Source of the DNA: Gammaproteobacteria bacterium | GTDB taxonomy: Bacteria > Pseudomonadota > Gammaproteobacteria > Thiohalospirales > Thiohalospiraceae | DNA: 45,578 bases | NCBI GenBank assembly: GCA_015490535.1 | Contig: WFXP01000170.1 | Coordinates: forward strand, 1-45,578 | Direction: 5' to 3' | Shown: positions 4,062-45,578 of the stretch, one piece after another | How positions within the stretch are numbered: position 1 is the first letter of the stretch | Layout of the letters: each line of letters starts with the position of its first letter | The notes under the pieces: generated by a model | What the model was told of the DNA's origin: nothing | What the model saw: the letters and a program-made list of their open reading frames with translations, nothing else | The model's database searches: none | Program-made: the position numbers and the translations under genes

Positions 4062-4236
4062 ATAATTGCCCAGTAACTATTCAGCTCACCCCTGAAATCC
4101 GCCATTTCGGCGTTGAAAAATGGTCATTTACACTCGTAAACTCCCATTTTTCGCCTTGAACTGACCAATTTCAGGGGCGATCTGAACAGTTACCAGCCTG
4201 TTTAAATACCATGCTGAATAGTTACATTGCCCAATT
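4062..4236. repeat. R2 repeat copy 1 between ilvD and argA
   Basis: This element has nested inverted repeats. The inner pair runs from GTAACTATTCAGCTCACCCC (from 4073) to its partner ending GAACAGTTAC at 4193. The outer pair (AATTGCCCAGTAACTATTC near 4065, and its inverse GAATAGTTACATTGCCCAATT near 4217) encloses it. The interior (TTTTTCAACGCC, CGTAAACTCCC, CGCCTTGAAC) reappears on the opposite strand at 26066-26159, so it is a dispersed repeat and not a local regulatory palindrome. It fills the ilvD/argA promoter region, and its right end contributes a TATAAG-like -10 sequence (4236-4241) facing argA. Confidence 0.75.
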
Positions 4237-13884: not shown

Positions 13885-13927
13885 CATTGGGAAAACGGTT
13901 ACGGCTGCGCGACGCAGGGCCTTCCCG

Positions 13928-13987
13928 GTACTTTTTCAAGGTAGTAGATCAGGAAGGTTTTCCTGATCTACTACCTTGAAAAAGTAC
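13928..13987. repeat. R1 terminal-repeat-only hairpin (60 bp, perfect)
   Basis: Two exact 27-base arms (GTACTTTTTCAAGGTAGTAG... and its inverse) enclose a 6-base loop. The arm closely resembles the end of the larger R1 elements (TACTCTTTCAAGGTAATAAG at 45225), so this is probably an R1 copy reduced to its terminal repeats. It lies between convergent rep and csrA, where such a stem may stop transcription from both sides. Confidence 0.85.
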
Positions 13988-14071
13988 TGGCAGCACCCGA
14001 CAAAAACCTCTCCGGCATGCGGGGAACCAGCAGCCTTGCATGGACCGGAACATCTCACATCTCGACCGCCC

Positions 14072-25599: not shown

Positions 25600-26115
25600 A
25601 TGAGCTCTTCAGGAACCTTTCGCACTCTGGCCCACTCTTCCCCCCCCGAACTTGCGGAACTGATGCGGCGCAGCCGGCAGCTGCAGCTGGTGGCGCGGCG
25701 AGTCAGGAATCTCCTCCCCGCGGCCCTTGCCAGAGAGTGCCAGCCGGGCAACGTGGTCAATGATACCCTATATCTGTACGTGAGTTCACCTGTATGGGCC
25801 ACCAGGTTACGCTACCTGGCGCCCGAGCTGGTAAAAGAGCTGCGGCTGCGGCCCGAGATGGGGCGGATCAGCAAGATTCGCATTGTGGTCCAACCGGAGG
25901 CGATCATTCAGGAAGAGGTTCCCGCCGCGCCGCCACCGCAGATATCGCCGGCGAATGCCGAGCTTCTGGATCAGGCGGCGGCAACGGCGGCAACGCCCAG
26001 GCTCTCCGCCGCCCTGCGGCGGCTTGCCCGGCGCGGGGGAGACGACCGCGCAACCGTTCGGAACCCCCCTGAAATCGGTCGGTTCAAGGCGAAAAACGGG
26101 CGTTTACGAGGGTGA
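25600..26115 (+). CDS. dciA: DciA-like (DUF721) protein with repeat-derived C-terminus
   Basis: The 171-residue product has the DUF721/DciA core (about 20-95: SRQLQLVARRVRNLLPAAL, VNDTLYLYVSSPVWATRLRYL, IRIVVQ). DciA proteins load or operate the replicative helicase DnaB in bacteria lacking DnaC. A low-complexity Ala/Pro/Arg tail follows. The last 16 or so residues (from PPEIGRFKAKNGRLRG) are read from the R2 repeat, which begins at 26066 and supplies the stop codon. The native end has therefore probably been replaced. It diverges from the M23 peptidase and converges on recN. Confidence 0.75.
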   Translation: MSSSGTFRTLAHSSPPELAELMRRSRQLQLVARRVRNLLPAALARECQPGNVVNDTLYLYVSSPVWATRLRYLAPELVKELRLRPEMGRISKIRIVVQPEAIIQEEVPAAPPPQISPANAELLDQAAATAATPRLSAALRRLARRGGDDRATVRNPPEIGRFKAKNGRLRG

Positions 26116-26159
26116 ATGACCATTTTTCGACGCAGCAATGGTAGAAGCTGAACAGTTAC
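26066..26159. repeat. R2 repeat copy 2 at the dciA 3' end
   Basis: From CCCCTGAAATCGGTCGGTTC through GCGAAAAACGGGCGTTTACG to GAACAGTTAC this matches the reverse complement of the repeat at 4073-4193, with a deletion near its right part. It overlaps the last codons of dciA and reaches toward the recN 3' end. Confidence 0.75.
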
Positions 26160-28789: not shown

Positions 28790-28974
28790 GAAAGCCTCCT
28801 GCCCGCAAAAACAGCCCTCACCGGATTCCGGCAAGAGCGATCATCCGGACAAACTTAGCACGATGCCACGGCCGCGCCAACTGTTGCCGGAGCTTTCCCG
28901 GCGACGGCCCGCCGTCTCCGGTTGAAATCGGTTCAATCACCACTATTACTTCTATGGGTCTGTCCGAAACGGGG

Positions 28975-29243
28975 GGTCTTCCCCCAATCGGGTGGGTAAA
29001 ATGGCAAATCACTGCGTAGCGGCCTCGTCCTTGACAGGCGGAATGCGCGTCACATACCCGGTAACCAGAAGGGGATTGGGGCCGTCTGGCTGGAGACCAC
29101 CGGATATCCACCACCTGCGCCAATTGCAACAGGTCCGGCTATCCCAAAGTCTCCCCAATCCCCGTGGGCCGACCATCTTCCGGCGTGCATTCCGCCTGTC
29201 CAGGATGGTTCGCCATTTTGCCCACACTATTGGGGGAAGACCC
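28975..29243. mobile_element. R1 palindromic element, copy c (nadK / cbpA gap)
   Basis: GGTCTTCCCCCAATCGGGTG and its inverse at the right form the outer arms. The inner arms (CCTTGACAGGCGGAATGC, GGGGATTGGGG) and the core match the other copies, with the same orientation as copy b (marker block and ACATA end both on the left). The CTAG/TTTCAAGG outermost ends are missing. It fills about half of the 558-base gap between divergent nadK and cbpA. The rest shows no gene. Confidence 0.82.
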
Positions 29244-31606: not shown

Positions 31607-31876
31607 AGGCTCTTCCCCGAATCATGCGGGTGGAATGGTAAATCACCGCGTAGCGGCTCCGTCCTTGACAGGCAGAGTGCACACCACATAATCGGTAGCC
31701 AAGAGGGGATTGGGGCTGTCTGGCCGGAGCCTCCGGATATCCACCATCTGCGCCAACTGCAACTGGTCCGGCTATCCCAAGGTCTCCCCAATCCCCTCAT
31801 GCCGACCATCTTCCGGCGTGCATTCTGCCTGTCAAGGATGATTTACCATTCCACCCGCATTATTCGGGAAAGAGCC
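31607..31876. mobile_element. R1 palindromic element, copy d (M48 protease / trpG gap)
   Basis: GGCTCTTCCCCGAATCATGC and its inverse GCATTATTCGGGAAAGAGCC (imperfect) are the outer arms. Inner arms and core match the family in the same orientation as copies b and c. It lacks the CTAG outermost ends. A short direct repeat AAATGG lies on both sides, which could be a target duplication or simply the split older copy. Confidence 0.8.
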
Positions 31877-33283: not shown

Positions 33284-36200
33284 ATGAACATGGGAGCCAA
33301 ACCGGCGAATGTTGTTCTGGCGGCCATCATGCTGGCCCTGATGCTCCCCTCGGCTGCGCTGGCGACGATATCCGATATCCCGCTGTTCATCTCCCGCAGC
33401 GCGGATCCCAATGTACTGCTGAACATGTCGGTGGAGGGTCCCATGGGGGGCGCGGCATACAACGACCAGAGAGAGAGCCAGCCGGATCGCTTCGGCAACC
33501 AGTGTAATGGCCGCCTATGGGACTCCGTCAACTGGCGCAGCCTGGGGGTCTGCTATTTCAGGGAGCGGGAGTATCTGGGGTATTTCAACCCCGACAGATG
33601 CTACCTGTACGATGGCGACAAATTCGTCCCTGGAGAGTCCACCAGCGACTATCACGAGTGCAGCGGCAAATTCAGCGGCAACTTTCTCAACTGGGCCACC
33701 ACCGCGGCGATCGACATGTATATCTGGACCATGACCGGCGGCAACAGGGTCGAGGATGGGAAGGGGGTCACCGTAATCCGCCAGGCGAGAAAGGCTTACT
33801 GGTGGTTTCATACCAAGCGAATCAGTGTGGCGGACAATGTGGCCCCCTACACCGTCACCCCCTGGTCCGACAACGAGGTGGTAATCGTCAGCGATCCGGG
33901 ACAGACCGGCGATCCGTTCGCCATCCGCTTCGAGAAGAGCTCCGGGGATGTCACCTACAACGCGAAGGTCCAGGTCTGCGTCGACGCCGAGAAGCTGGAG
34001 GCCAACTGCGTTCCATACACCGATTCCAACGGCTCGATCTACTACAAGCCGGAGGGGTTGATTCAGCGCAACGCGGAGAAGATGCGCTTTGCGGTAACCA
34101 GCTATTCCCTGGATAACAGCATGGCGCGGGACGGTGGGGTGCTGCGGGCCAACATGAAGTACGTGGGGCCGAAGATGCCGGATGGCTCCGGAAACCTGGT
34201 GGACAACCCTCGCAAGGAGTTCGGTACAGACGGTATATTTGCCCAGGATCCGGACGGGCTGGCCGGCAGCGGCGGAGTGAACTACAGCGGCGTGATCAAC
34301 TACATCAACCGCTTCAGCGACTATGGCTACAAGTCGTTCGATCCGGTGGGCGAGCTGTTTTACGAGTCACTGCGCTATTTCAAGAATCTGGGCAGGACAC
34401 CGGAGTATGCCGACGGCCTTTCCGACGCTGACAAAGGCGGTTTCCCGGTCATCACGGCGTGGGAGGATCCCATCCAGTACTCCTGCCAGCAGAACTTCAT
34501 CGTCGGGATCAACGACGCCTATCCCTGGATGGACAAGAAGCTGCCCGGGACCCACTTTACCTCGCCCACCTACCGGGGGGTGTCAATTGAAGAGGTGGTG
34601 CTCGGAAAGGGCACCAGCTGGGAAACAACCTTCGTCACCAACGATTACGGCGAACCATCCAATCCCGACCCGGATATCGATGTAACCGCGCTGACCAACG
34701 AGGTGGGTACCCTGGAGGGATTGAATGGCACCAGGATGCGCATGCGCTGCAGCAGTGATCCGTCCGCAAGCTGCGAAGACAACGACACCTCGGACTGGAA
34801 CATAGAGGCGGAGAAGAATGTCCCGGCACTGGGCGAGGCGTTCGGTCCCTGGCGCGGCGGGGTGAAACAGAACTCATATTATGTGGCAGGGCTTGCCTAC
34901 TATGCCAATACACGGGATGTCCGCGCCGATCTGGAAGGGAAGCAGACGATCACCACCTACATGATCGACACCCAGGAATACAACGACGACCCGCTGGTGG
35001 GTAACGCCAATATGCTATGGCTGGCGGGCAAATATGGCGGATTCGAGGACCAGAACGGCAACGGCCAGCCTGACCTCGCGGAGGAGTGGGACCGGGATGG
35101 GGACGGAGAGCCGGACAACTATGTGCTGGCCAACCAGCCCACCAAGCTGGTGGCGGGACTGCAGCGCTCATTCAACGACATATTCCGCCGCCTGGCCTCC
35201 TTCGCCTCCGTGGCGGCCAACTCCACCGAGCTGAAGAACGGGACACGTATCTACCAGGCGCGCTTCAACAGCGGTAACTGGGCGGGGGATCTGGTGGCCT
35301 ACGCGGTGGAACCGGACGGCAGCGTGGGAGACACAATCTGGAGGGCGTCCGAGCAGTTTCCCTCCGCTTCGGAACGCAGGATCTTCAGCTGGGATCCGGA
35401 AGCCCCCACCATCAACAAGGGGATCAGGTTCGCATGGAGCGAGCTGAGTCCCGACCAGCAGGCCGCCCTGCACACCTCCGCCAGCGGAACATACGACGGA
35501 GCAGGCGAGGCGCGCCTGGCTTACCTGCGCGGCGACCCTTCCGGCGAACAGCGCAACGGCGGGGCGTTTCGCGATCGGGAGCACCCGCTGGGAGACATAG
35601 TGCACTCCAACCCCCTGTTTGTAAGCGACCAGGACTTCGGATACGGCATCTACCGCTCCGGCAGCGCGCTGGCCGGGGAGAGCCACGCCTACACCCTGTT
35701 CCGCGACTCCGATCTGTACCGCAACCGCCCGCCGGTCATCTACGTGGGGGCCAATGACGGAATGCTGCACGCCTTCCATGCGGAGACCGGTGAAGAGCTG
35801 TTCGCCTACGTACCCAACGCCGTGATGGGGAGCCTCAGCGCCCTGACCTCTCCGCACTACGCCCACCGCTACTATGTGGATGGCTCTCCATGGAGCTCCG
35901 ACGCATGGCTGGGAGGGGAGTGGCGTACGGTGCTGCTGGGGTCACTGGGGGCGGGCGGCAAGGCGATCTTCGCCCTGGACATCACCGACCCGGCCAGTTT
36001 CTCCAGCGATGACGTGTTGTGGGAGTACACCCATGCCGAGCTGGGTTACACCATCGGGCAGGCAACCATCGCGCGCATGGCCAATGGAGAGTGGGCCGCC
36101 ATCTTTGGCAACGGCTATGAAAGCAACAGTCGGCGGGCCCAGCTGTTCATCGTCAACCTGGCTGACGGCAGTCTGATCAGACGCATCGACACGGATGCCG

Positions 36201-37132
36201 GCAGCAGCGCCGCGCCCAACGGGCTGGCGTCACCCATACCGGTGGACGTCAACGGGGACGCGGTTGCCGACTTCATCTACGCCGGAGATCTGCTGGGCAA
36301 CATGTGGAAATTTGATGTCTCCGACCCCTCCTCCATCAACTGGGAGGTGGCATATGGCGGTCCCGCCTCACCGAAGCCGCTGGCCACTGCGCTGGATGAC
36401 TCCGGGGTGCCACAACCCATCACCGCCAAGCCGGAGGTCGGCTCCCACCCCGCGGGTGGTGTCATGGTCTATTTCGGCACCGGAAAATATTTTGAATCGG
36501 GTGACGACCTGGTGAACGCCGATCCCCAGATACAGCGCTTCTACGCCATCCGCGACGACGGCGAACCGGTGGATGTGACCCGCGATCTGCGCCAACAGAG
36601 CATCCTGCTGGAGATGAGCCACACCCACAGCCGGGTGCGCATCACCTCCAGCAACCCCGTGGACTGGACCACCCAGAAGGGGTGGTACCTGGACCTGGTT
36701 TCACCTCTGGAAGGCGCCCAGGGGGAGAGGGTGATAAATCCGCCCATCCTGCGTTACGGCAGGGTGATCTTCACCACCCTGATCCCGGACGCCGATCCCT
36801 GCAGGTTTGGTGGGCGCAGCTGGTTGATGGAGCTGGATGCCTTGACCGGGAAGAGACTCAAGAAAAGTCCCTTTGATCTCAACCGGGACGACCGCTTCGA
36901 TGAAGGGGACTATGTCAACGCGGGAGATCTTGACGGGGACGGAAATGATGACCTGGTGGCGGTCAGCGGCAAGCAGTCGCTCGACGGAGGAATCAGTACC
37001 AACCCCGCCATCTTCGATGCCGGCAGCGGCAAGGAGGTGAAGATCGCCAGCAAGTCGGATGCCGGCTTCGAGGTGACCGTGGAGTCCAGTGGCTTGGTCC
37101 CGGGGCGCAAGTCGTGGCGCCAGCTGCGCTAG
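33284..37132 (+). CDS. pilY1: PilY1-type pilus tip adhesin (copy 1) lacking the vWA metal site
   Basis: PilY1 sits at the pilus tip and affects pilus extension, surface sensing and adhesion. The 1282-residue protein has a signal peptide (about 1-27) and the family's C-terminal beta-propeller region (YVGANDGMLHAFHAETGEEL, FALDITDP, IFGNGYES). The calcium loop DVNGDAVAD is in the propeller, with Asp/Asn-rich EF-hand-like segments near 590-610 and the C-terminus. The conserved block around LRGD carries an RGD at 749-751. The usual N-terminal metal-site sequence (LDNSGSM after PNV) is replaced by NMSVEGPMG at 47-55, so the vWA MIDAS is lost. Its TAG stop overlaps the CTAG end of an R1 element. 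Confidence 0.92.
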   Translation: MNMGAKPANVVLAAIMLALMLPSAALATISDIPLFISRSADPNVLLNMSVEGPMGGAAYNDQRESQPDRFGNQCNGRLWDSVNWRSLGVCYFREREYLGYFNPDRCYLYDGDKFVPGESTSDYHECSGKFSGNFLNWATTAAIDMYIWTMTGGNRVEDGKGVTVIRQARKAYWWFHTKRISVADNVAPYTVTPWSDNEVVIVSDPGQTGDPFAIRFEKSSGDVTYNAKVQVCVDAEKLEANCVPYTDSNGSIYYKPEGLIQRNAEKMRFAVTSYSLDNSMARDGGVLRANMKYVGPKMPDGSGNLVDNPRKEFGTDGIFAQDPDGLAGSGGVNYSGVINYINRFSDYGYKSFDPVGELFYESLRYFKNLGRTPEYADGLSDADKGGFPVITAWEDPIQYSCQQNFIVGINDAYPWMDKKLPGTHFTSPTYRGVSIEEVVLGKGTSWETTFVTNDYGEPSNPDPDIDVTALTNEVGTLEGLNGTRMRMRCSSDPSASCEDNDTSDWNIEAEKNVPALGEAFGPWRGGVKQNSYYVAGLAYYANTRDVRADLEGKQTITTYMIDTQEYNDDPLVGNANMLWLAGKYGGFEDQNGNGQPDLAEEWDRDGDGEPDNYVLANQPTKLVAGLQRSFNDIFRRLASFASVAANSTELKNGTRIYQARFNSGNWAGDLVAYAVEPDGSVGDTIWRASEQFPSASERRIFSWDPEAPTINKGIRFAWSELSPDQQAALHTSASGTYDGAGEARLAYLRGDPSGEQRNGGAFRDREHPLGDIVHSNPLFVSDQDFGYGIYRSGSALAGESHAYTLFRDSDLYRNRPPVIYVGANDGMLHAFHAETGEELFAYVPNAVMGSLSALTSPHYAHRYYVDGSPWSSDAWLGGEWRTVLLGSLGAGGKAIFALDITDPASFSSDDVLWEYTHAELGYTIGQATIARMANGEWAAIFGNGYESNSRRAQLFIVNLADGSLIRRIDTDAGSSAAPNGLASPIPVDVNGDAVADFIYAGDLLGNMWKFDVSDPSSINWEVAYGGPASPKPLATALDDSGVPQPITAKPEVGSHPAGGVMVYFGTGKYFESGDDLVNADPQIQRFYAIRDDGEPVDVTRDLRQQSILLEMSHTHSRVRITSSNPVDWTTQKGWYLDLVSPLEGAQGERVINPPILRYGRVIFTTLIPDADPCRFGGRSWLMELDALTGKRLKKSPFDLNRDDRFDEGDYVNAGDLDGDGNDDLVAVSGKQSLDGGISTNPAIFDAGSGKEVKIASKSDAGFEVTVESSGLVPGRKSWRQLR

Positions 37133-37468
37133 TAAAGTTAGGATCCAGATGGACGCTGAATCCGGATTGGGTCTTCCTCAAATCGTATGGGTGAAATGGT
37201 AAATCATCCTTGACAGGCGGAATGCACGCCGGAAGATGGTCGGCAGAAGGGGATTGGGGAGAGCTTGGGATAGCCGCACCAGTTGCAATTTACGCAGCTG
37301 GTGGATATCCGCCACTCCCCGGCCAGACGGCCCCAATCCCCTTCTGGTTAACGATTATGTGGCGTGCATTCCGCCTGTCAAGGACAGAGCCGCTACGCAG
37401 TGATTTACCATTTCACCCATACGATTTGAGGAAGACCATCCTAAGTTATAACCTTGAAAGAGCACTAG
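37129..37468. mobile_element. R1 palindromic element, copy e (pilY1 copy 1 / pilV copy 1)
   Basis: The element runs from CTAG (overlapping the pilY1 stop) to CTAG two bases before the pilV ATG. The left end is shortened (CTAGTAAAGTTAGGATCC); the right end AAGTTATAACCTTGAAAGAG is complete. The marker block and the ACATA end of the core are both in the right half, so the whole copy is reversed relative to copies b, c and d. An extra block (GACGCTGAATCCGG) near the left end is shared only with copy f. No separate gene is supported inside. Confidence 0.85.
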
Positions 37469-37470
37469 CC

Positions 37471-37989
37471 ATGAATACACCTCGGCCACCGGGATACCGA
37501 TACCAACCGGCCGCCAGCTCCAGCGCCGGCTTCACCATGGTGGAGGTGATGATTGCGCTGCTCATATTCACCATCAGCCTGCTGGGCCTGGCGGGACTGC
37601 AGGCGGCCTCGATGCGCAACAACCAGTCCGCCCTCCTGACCAGCACGGCCGCCCAGCTGGCCTCCAGCATGGGGGAGCGCATCCGCGCCAATCCCGAAGG
37701 GGCCGCCGCCGGAGGCTATCTGGCGGACAGCAGCGGGGGAGCGGTGCCCGACCCCCCCGCCGCGGACTGTTATACAGGTCAGTGCAGCCCCGCCCAGATC
37801 GCGGCGATCGATACCTACGAGTGGCTCTCGGCAATAGCCAACCGGCTCCCCTCCGGCAGCGGGAAGGTCACTGCCAGCGGGGAGATATACACTGTAACCG
37901 TAACCTGGCGCGCCTCGGGAGAAGCTGCGGGAGGCGGCTGCAACGCCCCCCAGGGGTTCACCTGCCTGCAGATGCAGGTGCGCCTGTGA
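37471..37989 (+). CDS. pilV: Type IV pilus minor pilin PilV (copy 1)
   Basis: The 172-residue prepilin has a 20-residue leader ending AG and the class III cleavage and helix sequence FTMVEVMIALLIFTISLLGL with Glu at +5. The globular part resembles PilV (SMGERIRANPEGA; YEWLSAIANRLPSGSGKV; TVTVTW), with a Cys-rich end. The start at 37471 is set by the leader length. The GAAAGAG that could serve as ribosome binding site, and everything directly upstream, belongs to the R1 element. The stop overlaps the GTG start of pilW (GTGA). Confidence 0.88.
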   Translation: MNTPRPPGYRYQPAASSSAGFTMVEVMIALLIFTISLLGLAGLQAASMRNNQSALLTSTAAQLASSMGERIRANPEGAAAGGYLADSSGGAVPDPPAADCYTGQCSPAQIAAIDTYEWLSAIANRLPSGSGKVTASGEIYTVTVTWRASGEAAGGGCNAPQGFTCLQMQVRL

Positions 37990-39071
37990 CCACCCGGCGC
38001 ACCCCCCTCTCCCGCCGCGGCCCGGCCGGGTTCACCCTGGTGGAGCTGATGGTGGCGCTGGCGGTCAGTTTCATAGTGCTGCTGGGAGTGGGCCAGGTCT
38101 TTCTCAACAGCAAGAGGGGCGCGGCGTTGCAGGAGGAGCAGGCCGCCATGCAGGGGAACGGCCGCTTCGCGCTCCACACGCTGCGCAGCGAGATCCTCAA
38201 AGCCGGATATCTGGGCTGCGGACATATGACGGTCCTCGCCGACAGCATCTACACCACGGGGAGCTACGAGGACAGTTTCGGCTCCCCGCTGACCGGGTAC
38301 GAGAGTCTGGATGGCGGCTGGAGCCCGGCGCTGCCAGCGGAGATAGACGACCCGGCCACCAGCGACGACGACGTCCGGCCCGGAACCGATGTGATCACCC
38401 TCCGCTACGGGGCTGGCGAAGGACTCAGGATGCTGCAGCCGAAACAGCACTATTTCTTCAAGGTCAGAAACCTGTCCCAGGAGAGCGACGGCTGCGGCCC
38501 GGGGTCCGACAGCTACAGCGGCATCTGCCCCGGCGATCTGATGATCGTCTCCGACTGCAGCAAGGCACGCACCTTCACTGTCCAGGACATGCACCTGGCC
38601 AGTGGCGAGCTTGAGATCTACCACCCCAACCCCGCCTGGGGTGACCCGGGAGACCCCAACCCCAACAACCACTTCAACCCGGCCTACAGCTACCTGTTCG
38701 AAGGGGTTACCGTCTCCTATTTCGTACGCGAGCGCGACCCCGACAGCGGGGTTCCCGTGCTCTACCGCAAGATGGGGGGCGGACCCGCCGAGGAGCTGGT
38801 GGAGGGGGTCGAGAATTTGCAGCTCCTGTACGGATTGGACAGCGACGATGACGGAATCCCCAACCAGTTCCTGCGGGCTGACGGCATCACCGATTTCAGG
38901 AGGGTCGTCAGCGTTCGGCTCGCGCTGCTGGTACGCAGCATCACCGAGAGAACCAGGCGCCCGGCGGCAACGCGCAGCTTCACCCTGCTGGACACCACTG
39001 TCACCACCCCGAGCGATCGCCATCTGAGAAAGGTGTTCGACACCACCATACAGCTGCGCAACAGCCACTGA
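37986..39071 (+). CDS. pilW: Type IV pilus minor pilin PilW (copy 1)
   Basis: The 361-residue product begins at a GTG that overlaps the pilV stop codon (GTGA). This start gives a 15-residue leader ending PAG and then FTLVELMVALAVSFIVLLGV, a standard prepilin cleavage site with Glu +5. The body has PilW features: QEEQAAMQGNGRFALHTLR, the GYLGC segment, CPGDLMIVSDC, and a C-terminal GVENLQLLYGLDSDDDGIPN region. A longer open frame exists upstream, but its sequence is unlike pilins. It is translationally coupled to pilV copy 1. Confidence 0.88.
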   Translation: MTTRRTPLSRRGPAGFTLVELMVALAVSFIVLLGVGQVFLNSKRGAALQEEQAAMQGNGRFALHTLRSEILKAGYLGCGHMTVLADSIYTTGSYEDSFGSPLTGYESLDGGWSPALPAEIDDPATSDDDVRPGTDVITLRYGAGEGLRMLQPKQHYFFKVRNLSQESDGCGPGSDSYSGICPGDLMIVSDCSKARTFTVQDMHLASGELEIYHPNPAWGDPGDPNPNNHFNPAYSYLFEGVTVSYFVRERDPDSGVPVLYRKMGGGPAEELVEGVENLQLLYGLDSDDDGIPNQFLRADGITDFRRVVSVRLALLVRSITERTRRPAATRSFTLLDTTVTTPSDRHLRKVFDTTIQLRNSH

Positions 39072-39244
39072 ACGCCCCCGGCGCATCTGGAACTCCCACC
39101 TGCAGCGCGCCCCTCCCCGGCCACGCCGTTCACGAAGGTTTCACAACCAGCAGGTCAAGAAGGGATCGCGGCCCGTCGATAGAGAGAACGAAGCACCGGG
39201 AAAAGAGTGCCAGGAGCGTGTCCAGTACGACAGGTCAGCCAACC
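39072..39244. other. Gap between the two pilin sets
   Basis: This 173-base stretch separates pilW copy 1 and pilV copy 2. No gene, R1 copy or clear promoter was recognised, though a promoter for the second set could lie here. Confidence 0.4.
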
Positions 39245-39763
39245 ATGCCCTTTCCGAACAACGGCTTTTACATGACTGGAAGGAGATTGCCGGCGCCGAC
39301 GGAGCGCGGCTTCACCATGGTAGAGGTGATGGTGGCGCTGGTCATCTTCATCGTCGGCATGCTGGGGCTGGCCAGGCTGCAGGGCGCCGCCCTGCAGAAC
39401 AATCACGTGGCATATCTGCATACGGTTGCCACCCGGCTCGCCTACGACATGACGGAGCGCATGCGGGCCAATCCGGCTGGAACGGCGGGCGGGGCATACA
39501 ACGATATCTCCTCGGACGCCGTTCCGGAGCATGTGGACTGCTACGGCGGCGAGGGGTGCTCGGCCGCCCTCCTGGCCGCCATGGACGCCCGCCAATGGCT
39601 CACGGCGATAGCCAGTGAGCTGCCATCCGGCCGCGGCCGGGTAACGGGCAACGGCCAGCTGTTCACCGTCACTGTCATGTGGGACCAGAAGCGCAGCGGC
39701 AGCGGCGGAACCGGATGTGGAGCCGGGGATCTCAAGTGTATCACCTTCGAGGTGCGGCCATGA
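39245..39763 (+). CDS. pilV: Type IV pilus minor pilin PilV (copy 2)
   Basis: The product of about 172 residues is a PilV paralogue: leader ending ERG, then FTMVEVMVALVIFIVGMLGL, followed by YDMTERMRANPAGTAGGAYN, WLTAIASELPSGRGRV and TVTVMWD. These line up with copy 1 throughout, with moderate identity. Start candidates are GTG 39218, ATG 39245 and ATG 39272; I prefer 39245 for a 22-residue leader, but no strong ribosome binding site decides it. The stop overlaps the next start (ATGA). Confidence 0.85.
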   Translation: MPFPNNGFYMTGRRLPAPTERGFTMVEVMVALVIFIVGMLGLARLQGAALQNNHVAYLHTVATRLAYDMTERMRANPAGTAGGAYNDISSDAVPEHVDCYGGEGCSAALLAAMDARQWLTAIASELPSGRGRVTGNGQLFTVTVMWDQKRSGSGGTGCGAGDLKCITFEVRP

Positions 39764-40839
39764 GCAGACCGGCCGTCACCAGATGCCATAGCGCAGCCGG
39801 GACACACGGCTTCACCCTGGTGGAGCTGATGGTGGCGCTGCTGATAGGACTGATGGTGCTGGCCGGCATCGTCAAGCTGTTCACGGACACCAGACGCGGC
39901 TCGACGATGCAGGAGGAGCTGGCGCGGCAGCAGGAAAACGAGCGTTTCGCCATGTTCCTGCTGGCCCGCGAGCTGCGGCACGCGGGCGATCTGGGCTGCT
40001 GGCAGGTGGCGAATCTTTCCGGACAGGTAACCGGGTTCAGCGACTCCCTGAGCCACTTCCGCCTGGCAGTGACCGGACATGAGGCGGTCTCCTCCAGCGG
40101 CAGCGGCAGCTGGAGCCCGGCGCTCCCGGCGGAGCTTGGCGGAGCAAAACCTGGCAGTGATGTGCTGCTCCTGCATCGCGCCCACAACCTGGGACTGACG
40201 CTGACCGCCCCACGACGCAGCGACCGGTTCCTGGTCAACAATGTGAGTTCGGACGGCCCGGTATGCAGCGGCAACCAGATCGGCTACAGCGGTCTCTGCC
40301 CCGGAGACACGGTGATCGTCTCCGACTGTTTCCAAACCAACGAGTTTTCCATCTCCTCTCTGGAGATGAACAACGGCGTGCTGAGCATTCTTCACTCCGA
40401 CAACCTGTTTCCCGAGAACGCCTACCTGATGCAGGAGGGCACCCGCCTGTTCAAAGGGTACAGCGTGGCCTATTTCGTCAAGGAGAGCGTTGTCGATGGA
40501 GTAACCGTGCCCGCCCTCTACCGCAGCATCGGGGGGGCTCCCGCGGAGGAGCTGCTGGAGGGGGTGGAGAGCATGCAGGTGCTGTACGGAGTGGACAGGG
40601 ATGGAGACAACTCGCCCGATCTCTACCTCAAGGCCTCCAGCGTGGACTTCAGCACCCCCAACGTGGTCAGCGTCCAGATCGCGCTGCTGTTGCGCTCCAT
40701 GAGCGAGGTGAAGAGGGAGAGCGGGGCGGCAAGGGAGCTGCAGATCCTCTCCAGCAGTGTCGCCGTGCCGGCGGATCGCTATCTGCGGCGGGTAGCCAGC
40801 AGCACTATCATGCTGCGCGATGCGGTGGGAGAGGGTTGA
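39760..40839 (+). CDS. pilW: Type IV pilus minor pilin PilW (copy 2)
   Basis: The 359-residue prepilin starts at an ATG overlapping the pilV stop by four bases. It has a 17-residue leader ending THG and the helix FTLVELMVALLIGLMVLAGI. The globular region parallels PilW copy 1: MQEELARQQENERFAMFLL, the DLGCW segment, CPGDTVIVSDC, and LYRSIGGAPAEELLEGVESM near the end. It is coupled upstream and downstream, its stop overlapping the pilX start (TGATG). Confidence 0.88.
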   Translation: MSRPAVTRCHSAAGTHGFTLVELMVALLIGLMVLAGIVKLFTDTRRGSTMQEELARQQENERFAMFLLARELRHAGDLGCWQVANLSGQVTGFSDSLSHFRLAVTGHEAVSSSGSGSWSPALPAELGGAKPGSDVLLLHRAHNLGLTLTAPRRSDRFLVNNVSSDGPVCSGNQIGYSGLCPGDTVIVSDCFQTNEFSISSLEMNNGVLSILHSDNLFPENAYLMQEGTRLFKGYSVAYFVKESVVDGVTVPALYRSIGGAPAEELLEGVESMQVLYGVDRDGDNSPDLYLKASSVDFSTPNVVSVQIALLLRSMSEVKRESGAARELQILSSSVAVPADRYLRRVASSTIMLRDAVGEG

Positions 40840-41387
40840 TGGCGGGCAGGCGGCACAACCAGCGGGGAGCGGTGCTGGCGGCCACTCTGGTGATCCTGCT
40901 GCTGCTCACACTCATGGGGGTGGGCGCCATGGGCAGCGCCTCCCTGGAGCAGAAAATGGCGGCCAACTCCTCCCAGCGTGAGGAGAGTTTTCAAACCACC
41001 GAGCTCTGCCTTCTGGCGGCCCAGGCGTGGATGGAGGAGAAGACCATCCGGCCGGTGGAGGGCAGCTGCGAGGGCAACAACGTCGCCTGCTCGGTGGAGG
41101 TGTGGGCGGCGAACGCGCTGGCCGCCAACTGGTGGGAACGGAACGATTCCGCCTGGTGGAGCAGCCACGGGATCACGGTCAACGAAGCATGGCTAGCCGG
41201 GAAGCAGCTGCCTCCGTCGCTGGCGAACAGCTGCCGCTTCATAGTGGAGCTGCGCAGCTACGTTCCCGACAGCATCCTGCAGGAGAAACAGACCAAGGGA
41301 GGAGGAATGTACTACTACTACCTGACGGTGCGCTCCGCCGGTAACGACAGCAGAATCCTGCAGAGCACCTACTCCAAGCGTTTTTGA
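40839..41387 (+). CDS. pilX: Type IV pilus minor pilin PilX (copy 2)
   Basis: The 182-residue product has a short leader (MAGRRHNQRG) and the helix AVLAATLVILLLLTLMGVG followed by SASLEQKMAANSSQREESF, the PilX pattern, again without Glu +5. The C-terminal part carries two or more Cys and a YYYYLTVRSAG stretch. The ATG overlaps the pilW stop, completing a coupled V-W-X run. It lies 40 bases before pilY1 copy 2. Confidence 0.87.
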   Translation: MAGRRHNQRGAVLAATLVILLLLTLMGVGAMGSASLEQKMAANSSQREESFQTTELCLLAAQAWMEEKTIRPVEGSCEGNNVACSVEVWAANALAANWWERNDSAWWSSHGITVNEAWLAGKQLPPSLANSCRFIVELRSYVPDSILQEKQTKGGGMYYYYLTVRSAGNDSRILQSTYSKRF

Positions 41388-41427
41388 GGCATCGCACCTG
41401 GCGGGACAATCACAGAGGAAAAACGAT

Positions 41428-44400
41428 ATGAGTAGCATTCAGTACCAAGGCAAAATCATCCCAGTACGGAATTTGCTCATCAGGCCACTGCGCGTACTGC
41501 TCCTCATCACCGGTTTCATGGTGTCTCCTGCAGCCGGGGCCGGGCCGCTCAATCTGGCGGACAAGCCTCTCTTCCTGAGCAGTTCGGTCACCCCCAATGT
41601 ATTCCTGCAGCTGGACAACTCCGGATCCATGCGCATGGATATAACCACAATGCCTTTCTGGCCGGTTTACTGCTATGATCCAACCCTGCCCCACCGCAAA
41701 AAAAACAAGACCCCCAACGACGACTGCGAGAGCAGGAAGCTGGAAGGTGGTTACTACAAATGGGGTTACAGCGGAATCCCTGACCTGCCCTATGTCTTTT
41801 TCGGCAGTATATTCCCTGCCGAAAGGGAGATACCAACCGCCGGCTCTCCCCCCGATAGAAGGGAATTTGCGCCATGCGAACTGCTGGTGGGATTCAAGGG
41901 GGAGGATGCCTGGAGATCCACCTGGTATCCACGAGCCCTGCCGTTTTGTGGCGACGGCTCCAATCCGGTCAGCAGCGACCCCTTTACCAGCCAACCCTAT
42001 CAGAAAGACTGGCGCATTCTGTCGTCAAAGTTCAACGTCAACTACTACGACCCGGAGCGGGTCTATCGTCCCTGGAGGGGAGCCTGCAGCAGATCCGGTA
42101 CCCCATGTGCCGATGCCGACTTTACCGCGGTACGGACAAACCCTCACACGTCTCATCGCGACTATCGCGATACGCCTCGCGATCTAACCGGTTTTATCTA
42201 TGAAGTATGGATAGATGATCGTGGTTATACCGGTAATCAACCACGCCGCGGAACCGCTACCGGCAGAGGAGACGGAGCGGTGAACGCGACCAGCACGCCA
42301 AACGGAGAAATAGATCTCTGGGACAGTCACATCCGGCACACGGTCGAGGCGACGCGTGTCAAAAAGGAGACCATCAGCTACTCGCCGGATGAGTCGGGCC
42401 TTCACCCAACCGTGGTTTCCACGGAATACATCACTGATCCGGCCGAGGTGGCAGCCATCAAGCAGAATATCGCCAACTGGTATCAGTACCACCGCACCCG
42501 TGCCCAGATCGTCAAGGCCGTAACCGGCGAGATGCTCCACAGCAGTCCCGACTACCGCTACGGATTGGGAGTGATAAGTGGATCTTTCAACAGAAGGAAC
42601 CCCGACAGGGCGAAATTCGTTCCGGTTCCGGCGGCAGGCGACACCGATTATGCCTCCCACAACCAGGCGCTGCTGGACAAGCTGTTCAGCTGGAATCTCT
42701 CTGCGGGAGGAACGCCGCTCCGCAGGGGGTTGCAATACGTGGGCAACTACTTCGATAACGAGCCGTTGATAAGTGGTGTCACCTACCCGGATCCGATTCT
42801 TCCGGAGGAGATGGGTGGAGCATGCCAGAAGAACTTCGCCATCCTGTTCACTGACGGCTACTGGAACGGCACCGATCCGGAGGGAATCGGTGACGAGGAT
42901 GGCGACGGCAAAAGCAGAACCACCCTTGCCGACGTGGCCAAATACTATTATGACAAGGATCTCAACGATGCCCTGCCGAACAACGTGCCACCGGACAGCT
43001 TTGACACCGCCACTCACCAGCACATGGTCACCTTTGGCGTCACTTTTGGCGTTTTTGGCGGACTGCGGGATACCGATGGTGATGGCTGGCCCGACAAGGA
43101 CAAGAATGGCAACGATTTCCTGTTGGCGGAGGACAGCGACTGGGGTGACATCGGAACCACCCCGGGAAGGAAAGATGACCTATGGCACGCCGCCTACAAC
43201 AGCAGAGGCGCCTTCATCAGCGCCCAGAACCCCCAGCAACTGCTGGACGGGCTGAGCAAGGCGCTGCCGGACAACATCGCCCTGCGCACATCCTCGGCCT
43301 CTTCTGTGGCGCTGAGCACCGGCAACATCAGCAGCGAAAGCCACGTATATCAAGCCATCTTCAACAGTGAGGACTGGTCCGGCCAGCTACTGTCGTTCCC
43401 GATCAATTCGGATGCCACCCGGAGCGATTTTGGAGAGCTGGACACCTCCGGCGCCGGGCCGAAGGGTTCGAAATGGGACGCCGGCGAGAAGATACCGTCC
43501 CCCGACAGCCGTGTGATAGTTACCTGGGACGGCAGCCGCGGTGTTCCCTTCCGCTGGGGAAACCTGACCAGCGCCCAGCGATCCGCGCTGGGCTCTGAGG
43601 CGGTACTCGACTACTTGCGCGGCGACCACAGCCAGGAAGAGCGGAACGGCGGCACGTTCCGCAACCGCAGCAGCCGGCTGGGAGACATCGTGAACTCCGA
43701 TCCGGTGTTCGTCGGCGCCGCCGCCTATCGTTACCAGATGGATGGCTACGCCGACTTCCAGAAGAGCAAGGCTAACCGCACCGAGATGATCTATGTGGGG
43801 GCCAATGACGGCATGCTGCACGGCTTCGACGCAAAGTGGGGCACAGAGCTGTTCGCCTATGTCCCCGGCAAGGTTTATGACAACCTGGCATCGCTGGCGG
43901 ACCCGGACTATACACACCGTTATTTCGTGGATGGCTCCCCCACCGTGGCCGACGTCTATTTCGACGGCAGATGGCGCACGGTACTGGCGGGCGGACTGAA
44001 CAAGGGCGGCAAGGGAATCTACTTGCTGGACATCACCAACCCCGATGCTTTCTCCTCCGAGAGCGCGGCGTCGGATCTGGTGCTGTGGGAGTTCACCGAC
44101 GACGATGATCCCGATCTGGGATACACCTACGGCAAACCCTCCATCGCCCGCATGCACAACGACCGCTGGGCGGTGATCTTCGGCAACGGCTACAACAACA
44201 GCGGTTCGGGGAACTCGGTACTCTACATCGCCTTCATAGACAAGAGTTCGTCCGGCTGGGTTCTCGGCTCGGACTACATAAAACTGGACACACAGGACGG
44301 ATGGCCTGCCAATCCCAACGGATTGGCCAGCCCGGCCCCGATCGACATCGACGGCGACAACCGGGTGGACTATATCTATGCCGGTGACCTGCACGGGAGC

Positions 44401-45195
44401 CTCTGGCGCTTCGACGTCAACAGCAGCAATCCCGGCGACTGGTCGGTCGCCAGCCTGGGAGAAACCGGACCCACCCCCCTGTTCACCACCAAGATCGAGG
44501 ATGCGGCCGGTAACCGGCAACCCATCACCACACAACCCGAGGTGGGACGCACCCCGTTTGGCAACGGACTGATGGTCTACTTCGGGACCGGGCGCTTCCT
44601 GGAGCAGGCCGATGTAAGCAACACCTCGCGGCAGCAGAGCTTCTACGCCATCCTGGACCGGAACATCAGGGTCACATCCGTGGATCAGCTGACCAGACAG
44701 GAGGTGTTGGGGGAGTACACCCACAGCAGCGGGGCAGTCACCCGGGTAACCAGCAACTACGTCATGGAGAGCAGCAAGTACGGCTGGTATCTCGATCTGC
44801 CCGGCGCCGGAGAACGGGTGGTGAACTCCCCGCAACTGCGCGGCGGGCGGATTATCTTCACTACCGTGACAAGCACCGACACTCCCTGCGCCGCAGGGGG
44901 CGGCTACAGCTGGCTGATGGAGCTGGATGCATATCATGGTGCACGATTGAACCGCTCCCCCTTCGATCTCAACAAGGACGGCGGCTTCGATGCCGACGAC
45001 ATGGTCGAGGTGAACTCGGAGCCCACCGCAGTCAGCGGCCGGAGGTTCGATGCCATTATCAACTCCCCGAGCATCGCATCCTACGGCGGCGGCGACAAGA
45101 AGTACTCCTCCGACTCCAACGGCAACGTGGAGGTGATCACCTCCAGCTCCGGCTTGCGGGCCGACGTGCGCAAGTCGTGGCGGCAGCTGCGGTGA
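41428..45195 (+). CDS. pilY1: PilY1-type pilus tip adhesin (copy 2) with intact vWA metal site
   Basis: The 1255-residue protein is secreted (signal peptide about 1-38) and shares the architecture of copy 1 at clearly lower than close identity. Here the vWA metal site is present: PNVFLQLDNSGSM with DNSGS at 63-67, and CQKNFAILFTDGYWNG further on. The C-terminal propeller has YVGANDGMLHGFDAKWGTEL, FGNGYNNSG and the calcium loop DIDGDNRVD. An RGD lies at 731-733 in the conserved LRGDHSQEERNGG block. Several Asp-rich segments (DEDGDGKS, DTDGDGWPDKDKNGND) may bind calcium. It closes the second V-W-X-Y1 set and is followed by an R1 element. Confidence 0.93.
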   Translation: MSSIQYQGKIIPVRNLLIRPLRVLLLITGFMVSPAAGAGPLNLADKPLFLSSSVTPNVFLQLDNSGSMRMDITTMPFWPVYCYDPTLPHRKKNKTPNDDCESRKLEGGYYKWGYSGIPDLPYVFFGSIFPAEREIPTAGSPPDRREFAPCELLVGFKGEDAWRSTWYPRALPFCGDGSNPVSSDPFTSQPYQKDWRILSSKFNVNYYDPERVYRPWRGACSRSGTPCADADFTAVRTNPHTSHRDYRDTPRDLTGFIYEVWIDDRGYTGNQPRRGTATGRGDGAVNATSTPNGEIDLWDSHIRHTVEATRVKKETISYSPDESGLHPTVVSTEYITDPAEVAAIKQNIANWYQYHRTRAQIVKAVTGEMLHSSPDYRYGLGVISGSFNRRNPDRAKFVPVPAAGDTDYASHNQALLDKLFSWNLSAGGTPLRRGLQYVGNYFDNEPLISGVTYPDPILPEEMGGACQKNFAILFTDGYWNGTDPEGIGDEDGDGKSRTTLADVAKYYYDKDLNDALPNNVPPDSFDTATHQHMVTFGVTFGVFGGLRDTDGDGWPDKDKNGNDFLLAEDSDWGDIGTTPGRKDDLWHAAYNSRGAFISAQNPQQLLDGLSKALPDNIALRTSSASSVALSTGNISSESHVYQAIFNSEDWSGQLLSFPINSDATRSDFGELDTSGAGPKGSKWDAGEKIPSPDSRVIVTWDGSRGVPFRWGNLTSAQRSALGSEAVLDYLRGDHSQEERNGGTFRNRSSRLGDIVNSDPVFVGAAAYRYQMDGYADFQKSKANRTEMIYVGANDGMLHGFDAKWGTELFAYVPGKVYDNLASLADPDYTHRYFVDGSPTVADVYFDGRWRTVLAGGLNKGGKGIYLLDITNPDAFSSESAASDLVLWEFTDDDDPDLGYTYGKPSIARMHNDRWAVIFGNGYNNSGSGNSVLYIAFIDKSSSGWVLGSDYIKLDTQDGWPANPNGLASPAPIDIDGDNRVDYIYAGDLHGSLWRFDVNSSNPGDWSVASLGETGPTPLFTTKIEDAAGNRQPITTQPEVGRTPFGNGLMVYFGTGRFLEQADVSNTSRQQSFYAILDRNIRVTSVDQLTRQEVLGEYTHSSGAVTRVTSNYVMESSKYGWYLDLPGAGERVVNSPQLRGGRIIFTTVTSTDTPCAAGGGYSWLMELDAYHGARLNRSPFDLNKDGGFDADDMVEVNSEPTAVSGRRFDAIINSPSIASYGGGDKKYSSDSNGNVEVITSSSGLRADVRKSWRQLR

Positions 45196-45220: not shown

Positions 45221-45576
45221 CTAGTACTCTTTCAAGGTAATAAGTTAGGATCCAGAGAGACGCTGAATCCGGAATTGGGTCTTCCTCAAATCGTGTGGGT
45301 AAAATGGTAAATCACCGCGTAGCGGCTCCGTCCTTGACAGGCAGAATGCACGCCGGAAGATGGTCGGCAGAAGGGGATTGGGGACACTTTGGGATAGCCG
45401 GACCACTTGCAGTTTGCGCAGGCGGTGGATATCCGCCACTCCCCGGCCAGACGGCCCCAATCCCCTTCTGGCTACCGAGTATGTGGCGTGCATTCCGCCT
45501 GTCAAGGATGATTTACCATTTTATCCACACGATTTGAGGGAGACCTTCCTAAGTTATAACCTTGACGGACTACTAG
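45221..45576. mobile_element. R1 palindromic element, copy f (after pilY1 copy 2), core inverted
   Basis: This is the most complete copy, running from CTAGTACTCTTTCAAGGTAA to CTTGACGGACTACTAG. The marker block (CGCGTAGCGGCTCCG, about 45314-45330) is in the left arm as in copies b-d. The core between the GCACGCC arms lies the other way round, with GGAAGATGG at 45354 and the ACATA end on the right. The window ends two bases beyond it with CC, which in copy e is followed directly by a pilV start codon. Confidence 0.87.
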
Positions 45577-45578
45577 CC

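Follow-up and report, generated by a model that had tools for sequence, protein, structure and literature searches.

Inversion of the interior between the arms of a dispersed hairpin MITE with ISL3-type ends in a vent-related bacterium

Insertion sequences of the ISL3 family have ends beginning GGNTCTTC and make 8-bp target duplications; the target duplication of the Correia elements (CREE) of Neisseria is a TA. In Wolbachia, the insertion sequence ISWpi1 is inverted by exchange between its terminal repeats, with conversion of the repeats, at 2 of 22 loci (9%) (PMC3004938). Template switching between inverted repeats has two kinds of product, homogenised arms and an inverted spacer (PMC8604942). 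For the Correia elements, the generation of promoters (PMC2649163) and inversion (cited in PMC10969869) are reported.

The window analysed here is a stretch of DNA of 45,578 nt from a vent-related bacterium (genome 2.13 Mb, assembly 92% complete). It includes five aligned copies (b to f) of an element with one layout in every copy: an outer arm (37 nt, GGTCTTCCTCAAATCGTGTGGGTAAAATGGTAAATCA), a 16-nt block present on one side only (CCGCGTAGCGGCTCCG), an inner arm (24 nt, TCCTTGACAGGCRGAATGCACGCC), a core of about 130 nt running from an ACATA end to a GGAAGATGG end, and the inner and outer arms again in reverse. Many copies, f included, sit within a second palindromic MITE (ends TACTCTTTCAAGGTAATAAATCAGGA, with a segment X), and segment X, marked by CCAGAGAGACGCTGAATCCGGAAT, lies outside one arm. 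Copy f as a whole occupies 45278-45545. Its parts and the other copies are as follows.

45222..45223, no strand: TA, left outer end of the composite (GGC-TA-GTACTC); the empty site of a relative reads GGC-TA-TCTGTGCC
45224..45249, plus strand: left outer terminal repeat of the TA-inserting host MITE (GTACTCTTTCAAGGTAATAAGTTAGG)
45250..45277, plus strand: one-sided segment X (ATCCAGAGAGACGCTGAATCCGGAATTG) belonging to the host MITE; a third orientation marker
45278..45314, plus strand: left outer arm of copy f, 37 nt, with the ISL3-like terminus GGTCTTCC...
45315..45330, plus strand: 16-nt one-sided block of copy f, CCGCGTAGCGGCTCCG, the arm marker of the earlier note discussed below
45331..45354, plus strand: left inner arm of copy f, 24 nt; inferred crossover interval of core-only flips
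45355..45484, minus strand: core of copy f, about 130 nt, inverted with respect to the block, its GGAAGATGG end being the left one and its ACATA end the right one
45478..45505, minus strand: sigma70-like promoter match TTGACA-16-CATACT across the right inner arm and the ACATA end of the core; a consensus match only
45485..45508, minus strand: right inner arm of copy f, 24 nt
45509..45545, minus strand: right outer arm of copy f, 37 nt
45546..45578, minus strand: right outer terminal repeat of the host MITE, reaching the contig end
23938..24259, plus strand: copy b, same family as f, b-type linkage of block and core
28974..29243, plus strand: copy c, same family, b-type linkage
31608..31876, plus strand: copy d, same family, b-type linkage
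37135..37470, minus strand: copy e, same family, b-type linkage; between pilY1 and a second pilV

In the alignment of the five copies, the 16-nt block adjoins the GGAAGATGG (GGAAG) end of the core in f, whereas b to e have it at the ACATA end. This confirms an earlier note on this DNA, which had read the core of f as reversed relative to its arm marker, unlike b to e. Copy f has segment X, a marker that the earlier note did not draw on, and the block together on one side, which is the commonest arrangement of these two markers, but its core is reversed, and the combination favours a core that flipped over a block that moved. From the commonest composite arrangement, f would need one inner-arm exchange.

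The arrangement of f is found across the genome. Inner-arm matches in the own genome number 185 forward and 184 reverse, against 0 for a reversed control pattern, and the family has roughly 185 copies there. Being short (about 268 nt) and non-coding, with long terminal inverted repeats and many dispersed copies, the element is a MITE. With up to 3 mismatches allowed, the f-type junction is found at 32 sites, the b-type junction at 113 and the reversed control again at 0, so the f arrangement is neither a product of chance nor peculiar to f. A census of the 141 own copies present in full, which omits about 44 of the roughly 185 (some of them cut by contig ends), places the block at the ACATA end in 99, at the GGAAG end in 30, at neither in 10 and at both in 2. 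Copy f is thus a member of a sizeable minority class, and the congeners G001 and G002 have the same mixture of block sides. The repeat was found only within the genus: the own genome (G000) has about 185 copies, G002 about 30, G001 about 7 and G003 a trace, while four genomes from other genera of the taxonomic family have none. With none or traces in G003-G007, these counts have the form of a lineage-specific burst. The exact family pattern has no match among IMG/VR viral contigs, and the plasmid collection has no match.

On its sequence features the element is best classified as a gene-less MITE with ISL3-type ends, often nested in a second MITE. Among the 66 basic copies without outer additions, the 8 bp on either side match at 7 or more of the 8 bases in 21, where 0.74 would be expected; at 9 bp the signal stops. 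Two ISL3 transposase (PF01610) loci of congeners, L182 and L186, have GGCTCTTCCCCAGATCGAGTGAGTA and GGCTCTTCCCCTGATCGAGTGGATA nearby, ends of the form GGCTCTTCCCC(A/T)GATCGAGTGRRTA that resemble the arms of the element, with one end matched per locus. PF01610 is present in G003-G007; no PF01610 transposase was found in G001, G002 or the 92% complete assembly of G000. Since the cognate transposase was not found in the own genome at that completeness, we speak of ISL3-type ends and not of a firm ISL3 derivative. ISL3 transposases were found only in congeners without the copy burst.

The second palindromic MITE is about 81 nt long (CTAGTACTCTTTCAAGGTAATAAATCAGGATTCAG...CTAG), with at least three uninterrupted copies (L362, C14:9445-9521 and C55:19911-19989); a short hairpin with its ends lies at 13925-13990 of the window. 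In the HyVt-486 relative (public record L128, 89% identity over pilY1) the site of f is empty, reading GGCTATCTG compared with GGCTAGTACTC in f, which makes it most likely that f inserted at a TA as one unit once the lineages had separated. Two other repeats were seen along the way. A third dispersed repeat (AAATGGCGGATTTCAGGGG...GAGCTGAATAGTTAC) often adjoins copies of the family, as in the flanks of L009, L014, L034, L115, L116 and L119, and the window has a separate pair of 90-nt inverted repeats at 4102-4191 and 26052-26141, 86% complementary and 22 kb apart.

The earlier note had proposed a comparison of orientation in relatives, and here the inside of the element is found turned between fixed flanks. 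We matched the flanks of own copies to those of copies in sister genomes and then aligned the loci, excluding L288/L323 and L110/L335 as not truly orthologous. At nine orthologous loci in congeneric genomes, each genome being a single draft assembly, orientation differs at four and five are unflipped. In L113/L205 versus L081, at what we take to be a trmJ-suhB-like junction from gene names read in the flanking sequence, the core alone is inverted, with arms and block in place. In L305 versus L088, L301 versus L332 and L291 versus L330, the block and core are inverted as a unit between flanks 95-98% identical, L291/L330 being judged from one flank. In all four cases the interior is inverted while flanks and outer repeats stay, as in an inversion between terminal repeats, and the exchanges map to both the inner and the outer arm. 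Excision of the whole element and re-insertion in reverse is rejected at two of these loci. In L305/L088, segment X is on the same side in both despite the inverted inside, and in L301/L332 a difference at the arm ends (GAGC versus GGGT/GGGG) is likewise on the same side in both; because these differences stay put, the whole element did not re-insert.

An inverted repeat could also let an assembler cross the core in the wrong direction, and contigs of the own assembly do often end in copies, f itself lying at a contig end (45578). Fold-backs at contig ends are known here: in the contig-end copies L027 and L110 the two outer flanks are the same sequence inverted, and L027 and possibly the two-block copy L011, both at contig ends, may be artefacts. 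Copy f, by comparison, has two arms that differ at several bases and is for this reason not a fold-back. Its key junction spans the 24-nt inner arm, of which the two copies are identical but for one base and share exact runs of at most 12, a length that ordinary assembly k-mers can resolve. Exact runs between the arms measure 6-49 nt at the flipped loci and, in f, 15 nt in the outer and 12 nt in the inner arm, below the usual assembly k-mers, which makes k-mer ambiguity an unlikely cause. Moreover, many f-type copies are internal to contigs and several independent assemblies show the f type. We consider an assembly artefact very improbable as the source of the f arrangement.

The flips are also scattered across the family. 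On a tree built from cores only, the block changes side 31 times, compared with 34.1 under shuffled labels (27-38), a count inflated by the poor resolution of about 130 nt. The nearest neighbour is b-type for 30 of 38 f-type cores, and the two types are intermixed on the tree; this lack of clustering argues against one old event. The earlier note had named fixed orientation and a single old conversion event as what would speak against flipping. Neither is seen: orthologs differ, and a single old conversion is rejected by the scatter of the f state on the core tree. That note had left two readings of f, a flipped core or a marker moved by conversion. The first is supported by L113/L205 versus L081, by the core-tree scatter and by the third marker of f; the second seems to have its counterpart elsewhere in the family, in the copies with zero or two blocks. 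With segment X as a marker, both X and block are on the ACATA side in 24 copies, X is on the GGAAG side and block on the ACATA side in 15, both are on the GGAAG side in 5 (including f), and X is on the ACATA side and block on the GGAAG side in 4. X and block are therefore on the same side in 29 and on opposite sides in 19, nearly even, while f-type core states make up about one fifth. Exchange seems to be more frequent in the outer arm, the longer of the two, as expected of length-dependent homologous recombination.

The two arms of a copy resemble each other more than they resemble the arms of other copies, as repeat conversion or homogenisation predicts. Outer-arm identity is 95.0% within a copy and 86.5% between copies (0.950 versus 0.865), with a maximum of 87.2% in 200 permutations. 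The DNA hairpin that the element forms is very stable (z -18). We propose that each copy behaves as a long hairpin in which recombination, or template switching during replication, between its own arms would turn the interior around. An exchange in the inner arm would flip the core alone and give the state of f, an exchange in the outer arm would flip block and core together, and exchange without crossover would make the arms alike and, at times, delete or duplicate the block. The family also seems to undergo conversion across the block: the copies with no block (10) and with two (2) are what the scheme expects of it. No recombinase was found among the window proteins examined with Pfam, and the copies are dispersed over the genome. 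We infer that the exchange is intramolecular, requires no dedicated recombinase and has no regulatory role; the flips are recurrent and appear to be passive. That arm-to-arm recombination or template switching within a copy explains both the flips and the arm homogenisation is, in our judgement, likely, and the flipping itself is probably by ordinary arm-to-arm recombination.

Exchange between copies has to be weighed against this scheme, since the best match of a core is not always its ortholog (rank 1 to 107 of 141) and inter-copy exchange may account for some flips. By such ectopic gene conversion, another copy elsewhere in the genome would overwrite a core, alone or together with the block, sometimes in the opposite orientation. 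The cores of flipped orthologs do rank only 4th to 107th among the 141 own cores, and between G000 and G002 orthologs the core diverges by 4-14%, more than the flanks (about 2-7%) at most loci. But the ranks of unflipped orthologs spread in the same way (1, 1, 7, 26 and 29), so core rank does not separate inversion in place from ectopic conversion. Outer arms beside the flipped segments, on the other hand, retain locus-specific sequence, and exchange between copies would blur the within-copy matching of the arms. We regard ectopic conversion as an unlikely source of the flips, and prefer exchange between the arms of one copy.

The earlier note had gone on to suggest that a flipping cassette beside pilus genes might be a phase switch. 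The window does hold two pilus gene sets at 33284-45195, in which PilV-, PilW-, PilX- and PilY1-like proteins are encoded and the PilY1 paralogs have diverged, and copies e and f each come directly after a pilY1. As a regulatory switch, inversion of the core would move a promoter, with TTGACA in each arm and CATACT at the ACATA end only, and so toggle neighbours such as the pilus cluster. TTGACA is near-invariant in both arms (162 of 172 and 168 of 172), CATACT or CATAAT occurs in 143 of 172, and f has a promoter-like match of 10/12 at spacing 16 (45505-45478, minus strand); the Correia elements offer a precedent, with promoters that they can generate (PMC2649163) and inversion that is reported for them (cited in PMC10969869). 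The surroundings of f and the spread of the family speak against it. The pilY1 stop codon is at 45195. Beyond the empty site in HyVt-486 is a gene that we take, from its translation, to be trpE-like; it reads toward pilY1 and its stop codon adjoins the site, so two genes converge on f with their 3' ends, and the promoter-like match of f is directed back into that of pilY1. The family occurs at roughly 185 unrelated places, and orientation does not follow gene starts: in tandem cases, with neighbouring gene direction estimated approximately from codon usage, the promoter side faces the downstream gene start in 14 and the other side in 24 (p 0.14). With dispersal genome-wide, the relative's site empty and orientation not following gene starts, the pilus-switch proposal is not supported: on present evidence f is not a pilus-gene switch, we see no sign in these sequences of selection for one, and a phase switch is very unlikely. 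The wider idea, that the family constitutes genome-wide invertible promoters with TTGACA in both inner arms and a -10 box at one core end, so that each flip would re-create the promoter at the opposite side and reverse transcription, strikes us as highly improbable; if true, each cell would hold many independent random expression switches.

Arm covariation could alternatively reflect a function of the hairpin as an RNA. The hairpin is indeed very stable, its arms do covary, and by the approximate estimate of gene direction the copies of the own genome are enriched between convergent genes, with 24 convergent and 9 divergent sites (p 0.014). Yet the remaining mismatches between arms have no G.U versus A.C asymmetry (G.T 80, C.A 88), which gives no sign of selection on one RNA strand, and orientation differs between orthologs. 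Rfam identifies only a tRNA in the window, and no Rfam family matches the element. Selection for RNA structure is unsupported given this symmetry, and we assign a structured RNA a very low probability.

With about 185 copies of a single asymmetric hairpin, this genome offers a replicated natural experiment in how inverted repeats recombine in bacteria. Exchanges can be mapped to two arm intervals by means of segment X and the one-sided block, and the orthologous copies in sister species let rates be estimated, so that the family is a good natural record of DNA inversion. It also gives warning that orientation is not a stable character of a MITE, that arms can covary through events in the DNA with no RNA function involved, and that fold-back copies such as L027 and L110 may arise at any palindromic repeat in metagenome assemblies.

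Compared with the known systems, the element resembles the ISL3-family insertion sequences in its ends, GG(C/T)TCTTCCCC..., and its 8-bp target duplication, and the PF01610 transposases of congeners have ends GGCTCTTCCCCAGATCGAGTG / GGCTCTTCCCCTGATCGAGTGG; it differs in being without a transposase, none having been found in its own genome. With the CREE of Neisseria it shares the character of a high-copy bacterial MITE, for which inversion (cited in PMC10969869) and promoter sequence at the ends (PMC2649163) are reported. The likeness is one of description, and the ISL3-type ends and 8-bp duplication set the element here apart. Both products expected of quasipalindrome template switching are present (PMC8604942), but the spacer inversions reported there are of 2-5 bp and the inverted part here is about 130-180 nt, which makes conventional recombination equally plausible. 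A parallel in process is ISWpi1 (PMC3004938), where the interior is likewise inverted between strains while the flanks stay, an asymmetry of the repeats places the exchange, and one repeat is converted to the other. ISWpi1 is a transposase-bearing insertion sequence with 23-bp ends, inverted at 2 of 22 loci; here a gene-less MITE has two separable arm intervals, is flipped at 4 of 9 orthologous loci, and has its arms homogenised family-wide.
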